Below are positions 2,263 to 5,853 of a stretch of DNA of 64,000 nt, one piece after another. A program made the translations under genes and the position numbers. Source of the DNA: Sphingomonas sp. SORGH_AS_0879 (GTDB taxonomy: Bacteria; Pseudomonadota; Alphaproteobacteria; Sphingomonadales; Sphingomonadaceae). Below the pieces are notes generated by a model. It had not been told where the DNA came from. It ran no database searches and worked only from the letters and a program-made list of their open reading frames with translations. Each line of letters opens with the position of its first letter. Position 1 is the first letter of the stretch. The stretch covers positions 1,436,001-1,500,000 of the forward strand of contig NZ_JAUTBJ010000002.1 in NCBI RefSeq assembly GCF_030819175.1. Direction: 5' to 3'.

Positions 2263-2298
2263 CGACCGCCTCGATCCATGGGTCAGGGCGGTCGTTTT
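2263..2298 (+). terminator. Intrinsic terminator of ecfG
   Basis: CGACCGCC (2263-2270) pairs perfectly with GGCGGTCG (2287-2294) and is followed by TTTT. It ends the phyR-ecfG unit and overlaps the first possible upstream start of the next frame, arguing that the next gene starts downstream. Confidence 0.85.
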
Positions 2299-2314
2299 GC
2301 GTCCGGTCCCGGCG

Positions 2315-2876
2315 GTGAGTGATCCCTCGCTGGGTTGGGAAGGGGTGGCGGAGCGGTTCGCCGCTCTCCGAACCGATATCGGCGTCGATGTCCTGCTTCG
2401 CTGGGCCGAACATGTCCGTCCCGGCGGCGCTATCGTGGATATCGGATGTGGGACCGGCCTTCCGATCGGGCGGGCGCTGAGCGATGCGGGCTTTCGCATG
2501 TTCGGGATCGATCCGTCGCCGCCATGTGCCAAGCGCGGTCACGGCGGAGGAAGGGGTCGAAGCCAGCCGCTTTTTCGACCGCCGATACGATGGCGCGGTC
2601 ATGGTCGGACTGCTCTTCCTGCTCAGCGAGGAGCGACAGCGCCAGGTCCTCGCCCGCATCGCCGACATTCTGCACCCCGGTGGGCATTTGCTGTTCAGCG
2701 CACCGGAACAGTCATGTCAGTGGACCGACAGCCTGACCGGCCAACTTTCCCGATCGCTCGGTCTTGCGGAGTATCGCCGCATTCTCAACGAGATCGGTTG
2801 CCCACTGGTCGAGTGCTATCGGGATGAGGGGGGCAACCATTATTGCTACGCCCGGCGGTCGGATTATCGAAGCTGA
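2315..2876 (+). pseudogene. Frameshifted class I SAM-dependent methyltransferase
   Basis: The first part, from a GTG at 2315, encodes the methyltransferase motif I region (IVDIGCGTGLPIG, then FRMFGIDPSP). At about 2520 the reading frame is lost and similarity continues in another frame: FFDRRYDGAVMVGLLFLL, then ILHPGGHLLFSAPEQ, ending GNHYCYARR. Relatives of this family usually have several residues (of the type TLVAAF) after IDxSP, so a short deletion with a frame change is the simplest explanation. Each half alone would not fold, so I call it a pseudogene, or an assembly error. The substrate is unknown. The last 13 bases overlap the 3' end of the minus-strand gene that follows. Confidence 0.72.
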
Positions 2877-3055
2877 TCCGACCGGGTGCCGGACACGCCG
2901 CGAATCCGGTCGAGGTGCGCCAGGAGCCGGACCCAGGGATCGGGTAGCCGCGACGGCTCCGAAAAGGCGGCGCGCAACGTCATGCCGATATCGTCCACGC
3001 GGCGCGGCGCGGGCACGATCCGGATATCGTTGGTCCAGGGGTCTGTAGTCGTCAT
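2864..3055 (-). CDS. Small protein resembling a divergent NepR
   Basis: A 63-residue protein. The N-terminus is MTTTDPWTNDIRIVPAPRRV; residues 21-53 read DDIGMTLRAAF, SEPSR, LPDPWVRLLAHLDRI. That order (IGxxLRxxF, then PD, then LLxxLD) matches the NepR helix pattern, with about two residues fewer in the linker than the nepR product at 55-210. It could be a NepR paralogue that binds EcfG or PhyR, or an unrelated small conserved protein. Supporting the link, its promoter region has an almost perfect EcfG-type site and it lies next to the stress locus. The ATG at 3055 is so close to the predicted -10 that the transcript may be leaderless. Confidence 0.55.
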   Translation of the reverse strand: MTTTDPWTNDIRIVPAPRRVDDIGMTLRAAFSEPSRLPDPWVRLLAHLDRIRGVSGTRSDQLR

Positions 3056-3063
3056 ACGATCAT

Positions 3064-3087
3064 AACGAACTTGGTCTTGACAAGTTC
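3064..3087 (-). promoter_or_regulatory. EcfG-like promoter overlapping a perfect inverted repeat
   Basis: On the minus strand TGAAC (3088-3084) is followed by 16 bases and CGTT (3067-3064): one mismatch to GGAAC-N16-CGTT. The same bases form a perfect 7-bp inverted repeat, GAACTTG (3067-3073) and CAAGTTC (3081-3087) with a 7-base spacer, which could be an operator. The predicted start point is within a few bases of the ATG at 3055. Confidence 0.45.
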
Positions 3088-3162
3088 AAAACATTATGAA
3101 GCGATTCTCGTCATCACATGGAAAGCCTTGGTCCATATGCCGCGTCGGGATAGACGGGACGC

Positions 3163-5853
3163 ATGAATGCGTTTCCGGCCAGCGGCCCGATCATGAGCCT
3201 GCCCGATGCGGTCGCCCGCGCGCGGCGGCATTCCTCCTTCCTGGCGATGCTGCTCGATCGGGAGCGGGGGATCGAGGCCAAGGCGCTGGACGGTATTCTG
3301 GCCGAGCCGAGCGCGCCCGACCCCGATCTATCGGTGGGAACGGCACTGCGGCGGCAGCGGCGCGCATTGGCTTTGACCGTGGCGCTGGGCGATCTGGCGG
3401 GGGTCTATGACCTGACCGAGGTGACGGGGCGGCTGACCGATTTTGCCGACCATGCGCTCGACCGTGCGATCCGGGCGGCGATTGAGGAGCGGACGCCGGG
3501 TGCCGAGCCCGTCGGCTTCGCCGCCATCGCCTTGGGCAAGCAGGGCAGCCGCGAACTCAACTATTCGTCCGACATCGACCCCATCCTGCTGTTCGACCCG
3601 AAGACCCTGCCGCATCGCCCGCGCGAGGAGCCGGAGGATGCGGCGGTCCGGATCGCCAAGCGGGTGGTCGAACTGCTCCAGGCGCGCGACGGCGAGGGCT
3701 ATGTGCTGCGCGTCGACCTGCGGCTGCGCCCCTCGCCCGAAGCGACACCGATCGCGATCCCGGTGGAGGGGGCGATCGCCTATTATGAAAGCCAGGCGCT
3801 GACCTGGGAGCGGGCGGCGTTCATCCGCGCCCGCGCGGCGGCGGGGGACATGGCGCTGGGACAGCGCTTCCTCGACGCGATCCGCCCGTTCGTCTGGCGG
3901 CGGGCGCTCGATTTCGGGGCGGTGGGCGAGATTCGCGACCTGACCCACCGCATCCGCGACCATCATGCGCAGGGGCAGGCGATGGGCCCCGGCTATGACC
4001 TCAAGCGCGGGCGTGGCGGCATTCGCGAGATCGAATTCTTCGCGCAAATCCATCAGTTGATCCACGGTGGCCGCGACCCCGCCCTTCGCGCGCCCGCCAC
4101 CCGCGACGCGCTGGCGCGGCTGGCGGAGGCCGGGCGGATCGATGCGGGAGAGGCGGCGGCGCTGTCCGATGCCTATGTCCTGCTGCGGACCATCGAGCAC
4201 CGGGTGCAGATGATCGACGATCGCCAGACCCATCAATTGCCGCTGGGCGATGGATTGGGGCGGGTGGCGCAACTGCACGGGCTGGCCGATGGCGAGGCGC
4301 TGGTCGCGATGCTGGCCCCGGTGACGGCAAAGGTCGGGCGGTTCTACGACGCGCTCGATGTCGATGAGCGGCCGCGCCTGCCGCATGATCCGGTGCTGCT
4401 CAACCAGCGGCTGGCGGCGGCGGGGCTGCGCGATATCGAGGCGGCGGCGCGGCGGATCGCGGCGTGGCGCGGCGGCGACTATGCCGCCTTGCGCAGTCCG
4501 GCGGCGCGTGAGGCGCTGGACGCGGTGCTGCCGACCCTGGTCGAGGCCTTGGGCGAGGCGCCGGACCCCGATGCGGCGCTGCTCAAGCTCGATTCGCTGT
4601 TCGAGCGGATGACCAGCGCGATCAACATCTTCCGCCTGCTGGAGGCGCGACCCGGCCTCGCCAGCCTGACAGTCGAGATCCTCAGCCATGCGGCGCCCCT
4701 GGCGGGCGAACTGGCCCGGCGTCCCGCGCTGCTCGACGGGTTGATCGACGCCTCCGCGTTCGAGCCGCTGCCCGCCGTCGAACATCTGGAACGCGCCATG
4801 CGTGGGGGTGAGGCGGGGCAGGATTATCAGGACAGGCTCGACCATGTCCGCCGGGTGGTCGGCGAATTGCGGTTCGCCTTGGGGGCGCAGATCGTGGCGG
4901 GGCGGGCCGATCCGCTGGAGGTGGCGGGCGGCTATGCGCGCGTCGCCGAGGCGGCGGTGGGGGTGCTGGCACAGGCGACGGTGGACGAATTCGTCACAGC
5001 GCATGGCCGGGTGCCCGATAGCGAACTCGTGATCCTGGCATTGGGCCGGATGGGCGGCGCGGCGCTGACCCATGCATCGGACCTCGACCTCGTCTATCTG
5101 TTCACCGGCGATTTCGCCGCCGAGTCCGATGGCCCCAAGCCGCTGGGGGCGACGCTTTACTATAACCGGCTGGCGCAGCGGGTGACGGCGGCGCTGTCGG
5201 TCCCGACCCAGGCGGGGCCGCTCTATCCGGTCGATACGCGACTGCGGCCCTCGGGTACGCAGGGGCCGCTGGTCGTCTCGGTGGAGAGTTTCGCGCGCTA
5301 TCAACGCGAGGATGCCTGGACCTGGGAGCATATGGCGCTGACCCGCGCCCGGCCCATCTATGGATCGGCGAAGGCGCGGAAGGCTGTCGCGTCCGTTATT
5401 GCCGACGTGCTGAACGGCAACCGCCCCCCGCGCGATGTGGCGGCGGAGGCGGGAGAGATGCGGACCGAGATGGCACGGCACAAGCCGCCGCAGGGACCGC
5501 TGGACGTGAAGCTGCTGCCAGGCGGGCTGGTGGATCTGGAATTCGCGGTGCACCGGACGCAACTGACCCGGCGGACCGGTTTCGACCCCGATCTGGGCCG
5601 GGCGATCGCGGCTCTGGTGGGGCAGGGGCTGATGCCCCCCGGCATGGCGACGGCGTATGACGTGCTGACCCGCGCACTCGTCGCCTTCCGCCTGCTGGTC
5701 CCCGATGGGCAGGAGCCGCCAGAGCCGACCCGCCCGCTGATCACACGCGCCATGGGGCTGGCCGACTGGGACATGGTGGTTGCCACGCTGGAGGCGACGC
5801 GGCAGGAGGTCGGCCAAGTCTGGCAAGAAGGAGTGGGCGATGGAACAGGGTGA
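3163..5853 (+). CDS. glnE: Bifunctional glutamine synthetase adenylyltransferase/deadenylylase
   Basis: An 896-residue protein, near the shorter length usual in sphingomonads (the E. coli protein has 946). It carries two nucleotidyltransferase domains: the N-terminal deadenylylase signature GSRELNYSSDIDPILLFD at about residues 127-144, and the C-terminal adenylylase signature GRMGGAALTHASDLDLVYLF at about 628. It adds or removes AMP on glutamine synthetase in response to PII and glutamine. The start chosen is the ATG at 3163; an internal ATG (MSLPDA, 3193) is an alternative. It overlaps bcp by 14 bases, so the two are likely co-transcribed. Confidence 0.95.
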   Translation: MNAFPASGPIMSLPDAVARARRHSSFLAMLLDRERGIEAKALDGILAEPSAPDPDLSVGTALRRQRRALALTVALGDLAGVYDLTEVTGRLTDFADHALDRAIRAAIEERTPGAEPVGFAAIALGKQGSRELNYSSDIDPILLFDPKTLPHRPREEPEDAAVRIAKRVVELLQARDGEGYVLRVDLRLRPSPEATPIAIPVEGAIAYYESQALTWERAAFIRARAAAGDMALGQRFLDAIRPFVWRRALDFGAVGEIRDLTHRIRDHHAQGQAMGPGYDLKRGRGGIREIEFFAQIHQLIHGGRDPALRAPATRDALARLAEAGRIDAGEAAALSDAYVLLRTIEHRVQMIDDRQTHQLPLGDGLGRVAQLHGLADGEALVAMLAPVTAKVGRFYDALDVDERPRLPHDPVLLNQRLAAAGLRDIEAAARRIAAWRGGDYAALRSPAAREALDAVLPTLVEALGEAPDPDAALLKLDSLFERMTSAINIFRLLEARPGLASLTVEILSHAAPLAGELARRPALLDGLIDASAFEPLPAVEHLERAMRGGEAGQDYQDRLDHVRRVVGELRFALGAQIVAGRADPLEVAGGYARVAEAAVGVLAQATVDEFVTAHGRVPDSELVILALGRMGGAALTHASDLDLVYLFTGDFAAESDGPKPLGATLYYNRLAQRVTAALSVPTQAGPLYPVDTRLRPSGTQGPLVVSVESFARYQREDAWTWEHMALTRARPIYGSAKARKAVASVIADVLNGNRPPRDVAAEAGEMRTEMARHKPPQGPLDVKLLPGGLVDLEFAVHRTQLTRRTGFDPDLGRAIAALVGQGLMPPGMATAYDVLTRALVAFRLLVPDGQEPPEPTRPLITRAMGLADWDMVVATLEATRQEVGQVWQEGVGDGTG

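Follow-up and report, generated by a model that had tools for sequence, protein, structure and literature searches.

A probable nepR2 gene next to ecfG in Sphingomonas sp. SORGH_AS_0879: a further example of a known regulator, conserved across the genus at a fixed distance from its promoter

The window, i.e., the whole stretch of 64,000 nucleotides of Sphingomonas sp. SORGH_AS_0879 DNA that was analyzed, carries a 63-codon ORF on its minus strand (2864–3055) which, judged by its sequence conservation, is a genuine conserved gene. Very probably, it is nepR2, the orthologue of the gene for NepR2 of Sphingomonas melonis Fr1, and would encode an EcfG-induced, PhyR-binding feedback brake on the EcfG response. 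The kind is already known from the published NepR2, and the window gene is a further example of it. New here are the near-universal conservation of nepR2 in the genus and the fixed distance between its promoter and its start codon. Neither was found in print in the searches made of open-licence literature, including a word search of the accessible text of PMC6599016. Thus, one published protein of one strain becomes a family present in nearly all sampled Sphingomonas genomes and missed by annotation.

The stress response locus and the coding status of nepR2

At its start, the window holds the general stress response genes in the Sphingomonas arrangement, made up of nepR, phyR, an ORF of 47 amino acids, ecfG, a methyltransferase-like stretch, nepR2 and glnE (Table 1).

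Table 1. Coordinates of genes and promoter elements at the start of the window.
Feature	Position	Strand	Basis or remark
nepR, canonical anti-sigma factor	55–225	minus	PF18557, 33.8 bits
EcfG-type promoter-like site of nepR, GGAAC-N16-GGTT	315–339	minus	89 nt 5' of the TTG start at 225; cf. Fr1 #1444 (PMC6599016, Table 1)
phyR, response regulator anti-anti-sigma factor	474–1274	plus	domain searches
EcfG-type promoter-like site of the 47-aa ORF, GGACC-N16-CGTT	1314–1338	plus	cf. Fr1 #1446
ORF of 47 aa with one hydrophobic stretch (by eye)	1342–1485	plus	position and promoter string; occupies the place of Fr1 #1446
ecfG, stress sigma factor	1604–2242	plus	named from sigma-70 regions and place beside phyR
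nepR2 ORF	2864–3055	minus	63 aa, ATG start; core DDIGMTLRAAFSEPSRLPDPWVRLLAHLD; NepR homology, dN/dS
EcfG-type -10 box CGTT	3064–3067	minus	8 nt before ATG
EcfG-type -35 box TGAAC	3084–3088	minus	N16 spacer to -10 box
Perfect 7-bp inverted repeat GAACTTG-N7-CAAGTTC	3067–3087		sequence
glnE, divergent neighbour of nepR2	3163–5853	plus	domain searches

Three features of the surroundings were observed in addition. The promoter-like site of the 47-aa ORF ends 9 nt before an ATG at 1348, and the published listing of Fr1 #1446 gives a promoter distance of 2 nt, which suggests that the start codon of #1446 was called too early. A 533-aa ORF beside nepR, just outside the window, contains a VHHRVKNNLQVISSLI stretch and occupies the position of Fr1 phyT; its position and motif suggest a phyT counterpart. 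The methyltransferase-like sequence (window 2297–2876) is split over two reading frames and looks frameshifted. It shares its 3'-terminal 13 bp with nepR2, and among the 30 loci derived from tblastn a homologue was matched in L001–L003 only.

The preliminary description of this DNA had read the NepR order IGxxLRxxF, PD, LLxxLD in the 63-residue protein, and the elements IGMTLRAAF, LPDP and LLAHLD were indeed all located within the product of the ORF. Its dN/dS was 0.21–0.52 in comparison with L002–L009 (49 codons). A control with the other reading frames covered L002 and L003. The comparison with L002 says nothing, since only 6 changes underlie dN/dS there and three other frames gave 0.26–0.64. 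With L003, four other frames gave values of about 1.85 to 4.98 and one reverse frame 0.33.

Searched alone, the window protein had no Pfam or NCBIfam match at E 10, and among 5.8 billion proteins two relatives were found by a word-based search. The lack of a family match for the single protein would fit a chance ORF with a chance motif, in which only the intergenic DNA is conserved, for example as the divergent glnE promoter; so would the undistinguished dN/dS of the ORF against L002 and the promoter match, which by itself is at chance level in the window. This explanation is hardly credible, and it was rejected on the grounds of conservation at the protein level in 58 of 60 genomes, the dN/dS values against eight relatives and the profile homology to NepR described below.

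Membership of the NepR superfamily and distribution in the genus

Profile homology over the NepR core supports that the family belongs to the NepR superfamily. Profile A1 was derived from 25 family members with no NepR included. Its best PDB match was chain 2lfw_B (NepR anti sigma factor) with an E value of 9e-4, the runner-up having an E value of 1.7, and it recovered the canonical nepR in all five searched stretches that hold this gene (E 1.5e-5 to 8.4e-5). In hhalign, the family profile matched a set of 17 NepR sequences, none of them from the window's family, at 93.0% probability (score 37.6) and the set with sphingomonad NepR added at 95.6% (score 44.8). The maximum for 200 column-shuffled controls against the latter set was 15.1%, and their maximum score was 19.5. 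L154 and L157 had been dropped from the NepR sets, since no NepR core was recovered from them.

The Pfam profile itself gave a divided result. PF18557 (cut-off 25.7 bits) did not match the window protein at E 10, nor is the protein among the three PF18557 matches of its own genome, whereas 26 of 87 relatives matched weakly at E up to 1, the best at 1.6e-4 (set A3, available family sequences hand-picked for spread). The PF18557 search proposed as a check in the preliminary description thus fails on the single sequence. A separate observation concerns locus L032, in which a 231-aa anti-sigma-like ORF (1009–1704, minus) follows a gene for an ECF sigma factor (41% to EcfG). This ORF carries LKARLASAYAPVADEPVPDRLAAIL, which resembles the NepR core, and scored 21.1 bits with PF18557, i.e., under the cut-off.

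About 30 residues make up the core shared with NepR, and NepR2 would have a two-helix fold. The column of L27 is L in 112 of 115 family sequences, and that of F31 is F or Y in all 115. The linker has 6 residues in 85 of the 115 sequences (5–7 in 114), compared with 8 in two NepR sequences; hence, the earlier remark that it is two residues shorter than in nepR was right and applies family-wide. A stretch V-x-x-P-R-x-x-D is conserved before the first helix (V in 100, P in 114, R in 79 and D in 100 of the 115 sequences).

When 151 genomes of the genus were searched by tblastn with the window protein, 9 matches with E below 1e-15 were obtained, the window's own included, followed by a long weak tail. 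Two larger tallies were not taken as gene counts: 144 of 151 genomes at E up to 1, for which the threshold is too loose, and 105 of 298, which includes canonical nepR. In all 30 loci fetched after tblastn, a family ORF was present beside glnE, and ecfG was located in the stretch in 29 of them. For a further sample, 60 Sphingomonas genomes were drawn by handle number (G002–G075 without an earlier locus, which leaves out the best-matching genomes; G013 was omitted, its glnE place not being listed). Since the draw followed handle numbers and the region upstream of glnE was inspected, there was no choosing by score. A family member was located upstream of glnE in 58 of the 60 genomes, the weakest at 30.8 bits, and ecfG lay within the fetched stretch in 53 of these 58. 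In G014 and G036 (L166 and L167), nepR, phyR, ecfG and glnE followed in order and no nepR2 was found. These two are apparently natural losses, and nepR2, being absent from both, would be dispensable there.

Outside the genus, 21 of the 24 top-scoring loci (L040–L063) had the gene beside glnE, 16 of those with ecfG in the stretch, while L060 and L063 are canonical nepR. In other genera (L041, L050, L052, L058 and L061), nepR2 was seen beside glnE with no ecfG within the 1.5 kb fetched. An order-wide draw yielded matches at E up to 1e-4 in at least 9 of 118 genomes, all within the same taxonomic family; two of the nine cover the NepR core only and may be canonical nepR. Among the 120 relatives listed, none had a precomputed Pfam domain, and the only descriptive names were hypothetical or uncharacterized protein.

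Promoter geometry and the predicted start of the message

The EcfG-type promoter claimed for the gene, TGAAC-N16-CGTT with one mismatch to the consensus, is present 8 nt before the ATG. Alone, this match is not above chance, with 15 one-mismatch EcfG sites in the window compared with 12.2 expected and with 26 of 100 shuffles reaching 15; it gains weight because it is conserved across loci. Of 118 loci, 113 were examined after leaving out L087 and L108 (no family ORF), L055 (unassigned), L060 (canonical nepR) and L036 (repeats L023), and 109 were scored, since no site was obtained for L048, L052, L062 and L099. The -35 box was GCAAC in 75 loci, GAAAC in 25 and another sequence in 9; the -10 box was CGTT in 94 and another sequence in 15, and the spacer was 16 nt long in 105.

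The first in-frame start codon followed the -10 box at 8 or 9 nt in 106 of the 109 loci (97 ATG and 9 GTG), counts that are biased towards finding a site, as the survey accepted only -10 boxes containing GTT and favoured start codons close to a good site. Since the survey sought the best site near the start, shuffling provides the fairer test. The strict promoter pattern at 8–9 nt was present in 101 of the 109 loci, in comparison with a mean of 0.01 and a maximum of 1 when these upstream stretches were shuffled base by base 200 times, the starts chosen by the survey being kept. Not every promoter-like site of the locus is this close to its gene, since that of nepR sits 89 nt before the start taken for nepR.

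Because of the fixed 8–9 nt from the -10 box to the start codon, the nepR2 message is predicted to be leaderless or near-leaderless, its first nucleotide probably being the A of the AUG or lying only a few nt away from it. The leaderless message proposed in the preliminary description thus fits the conserved geometry, the leaderless start itself being a prediction. For Caulobacter, a SigT motif is reported at -34 of one mapped start (PMC4287350). Provided that -34 denotes the motif's first base, transcription of nepR2 would begin with the A of the ATG or a directly neighbouring base. The SigT promoter passages of PMC5869019 give no start distance. In vitro transcription from EcfG promoters with GCAAC and CGTT is described for Sphingopyxis (PMC7083833). 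A literature search for NepR or EcfG together with leaderless found no paper linking the two, as judged from titles for NepR and from passages of a paper on transcription starts for EcfG.

A more far-reaching reading is that nepR2 is a deeply conserved leaderless gene. In all of Sphingomonas and in further genera of the same family, EcfG would start its transcription exactly at the AUG, which would make it an off-switch independent of a ribosome binding site. As a whole, this reading is speculative and rather doubtful. If it is true, the off-switch of the stress response would be translated by a leaderless route and would still work when stress impairs ordinary initiation. Because the spacing is fixed at 8–9 nt, it can be tested directly whether a stress-response brake is expressed from a leaderless message.

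The perfect 7-bp inverted repeat was present and overlaps the promoter as had been described, but it is not conserved. It was found in L002 and is absent already in L003 and L004; therefore, it is probably incidental and was rejected as a meaningful element.

Relation to NepR2 of S. melonis Fr1, proposed action and comparison with known systems

NepR2 of S. melonis Fr1 is encoded by gene #1448, which adjoins ecfG (#1447), and was described in 2019 as a member of the EcfG regulon and a negative feedback regulator (PMC6599016). According to that paper, knockout of nepR2 gave a higher and overexpression a lower stress response, as monitored with an EcfG-dependent reporter, and PhyR co-immunoprecipitated with NepR2. 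L31 and F35 of NepR2 were needed, R32 and M46 were not. On co-expression of NepR2 with EcfG both proteins were unstable, unlike NepR with EcfG, so that this experiment did not decide whether NepR2 binds EcfG (PMC6599016).

Two genomes, G098 and G147, matched 50 of 50 searched NepR residues of chain 2lfw_B (100%). The 2lfw structure presumably comes from strain Fr1. The promoter strings that PMC6599016 gives for Fr1 #1444 and #1446 occur letter for letter in both genomes; the #1444 string was also present in L162, and the strings of #1442 and #1462 were absent from the stretches searched. In the nepR2 position, L165 encodes L31, R32, F35 and M46, and L164 encodes L31, R32 and F35. G098 and G147 (L164 and L165) would therefore be S. 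melonis or very near kin. Their gene layout is that of the window, with nepR2 next to ecfG and divergent from glnE, and their nepR2 promoter is GCAAC-N16-CGTT. The proteins of the window and of L165 share 39% over 38 aa (E 2e-6, three-sequence comparison), and L27 and F31 of the window protein align with L31 and F35 of the Fr1 type. The profile alignment pairs NepR M48 with F44 of L165 and W41 of the window protein, not with M46, which suggests that the residue mutated in Fr1, M46, is perhaps not the counterpart of NepR M48 and that F44 is.

Because of synteny and residue numbering, the window gene is most likely the orthologue of Fr1 NepR2. The earlier proposal, that the nepR-phyR-ecfG locus is flanked by a gene for another NepR-like protein with an EcfG-type promoter, is borne out by profile evidence, synteny and the published protein, and its wording as a paralogous or decoy regulator fits the PhyR binding published for Fr1. 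By analogy to Fr1, stress would release EcfG, and RNA polymerase with EcfG would transcribe nepR2 from the promoter of the GNAAC-N16-CGTT type. NepR2 would then bind PhyR via its LR-x-x-F/Y helix. With PhyR occupied by NepR2, NepR would be displaced and free to recapture EcfG, so that the response would be limited and switched off. Both the Fr1-like action in the window strain and NepR displacement as the mechanism of NepR2 are what we infer.

Alternatively, NepR2 could act chiefly on EcfG, which it would bind directly as NepR does, and not as an antagonist of PhyR; it would then be a second anti-sigma factor. It has the same core as NepR and lies adjacent to ecfG, and the knockout and overexpression effects published for Fr1 fit either route (PMC6599016). 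However, the instability of NepR2 co-expressed with EcfG, the pull-down of PhyR by NepR2 (PMC6599016) and a linker two residues shorter than that of NepR may argue against direct binding, as may the description that PhyR-binding NepR homologues of Methylobacterium extorquens were not seen to bind any EcfG (PMC4814048). Such a role is thus unlikely. It is far less probable still that NepR2 has some other sigma factor as its partner, a possibility that the preliminary description had raised in view of the shorter linker. Another ECF sigma factor does exist in the genome (L032, the one with 41% to EcfG), but the presence of ecfG in 53 of the 58 gene-bearing fetched stretches, the EcfG-type promoter and, in Fr1, PhyR binding and the effect on the EcfG-dependent reporter (PMC6599016) oppose it, and the proposal gained no support.

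Action on PhyR is thus the preferred reading, and NepR2 can be placed among the known systems as follows. Among open-licence papers, the search for sphingomonad NepR paralogues returned work on S. granuli only. The "nepR2" of Sphingopyxis granuli TFA shares the name and an EcfG-type promoter, but is described as a gene that precedes and overlaps ecfG1 within a single operon (PMC7083833); because of this position, it was set apart as a different gene under the same name. Canonical NepR (PF18557; chains 2lfw_B and 3t0y_B) has the G-x-x-LR-x-x-F/Y, P-D, LL-x-x-L core in common with NepR2, whereas the shorter linker and the V-x-x-P-R-x-x-D stretch are features of NepR2, the window protein is without a PF18557 match, and NepR2 is encoded on the far side of ecfG. 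A comparable protein of M. extorquens, MexAM1_META2p0735, is described as homologous to NepR. Its gene has an EcfG-type promoter, PhyR co-precipitates with the protein, and its overexpression makes cells more sensitive to stress (PMC4814048); organism and locus differ, and the likeness is drawn from the published description. Closest is Fr1 NepR2, which has the same place next to ecfG, a NepR-like core, the L31/R32/F35/M46 numbering retained in L165 and a dependence on EcfG that was described in Fr1 and is matched by the EcfG-type promoter of the Fr1-type genomes, the window protein having diverged from it (39% over 38 aa) and having a longer C-terminal tail.
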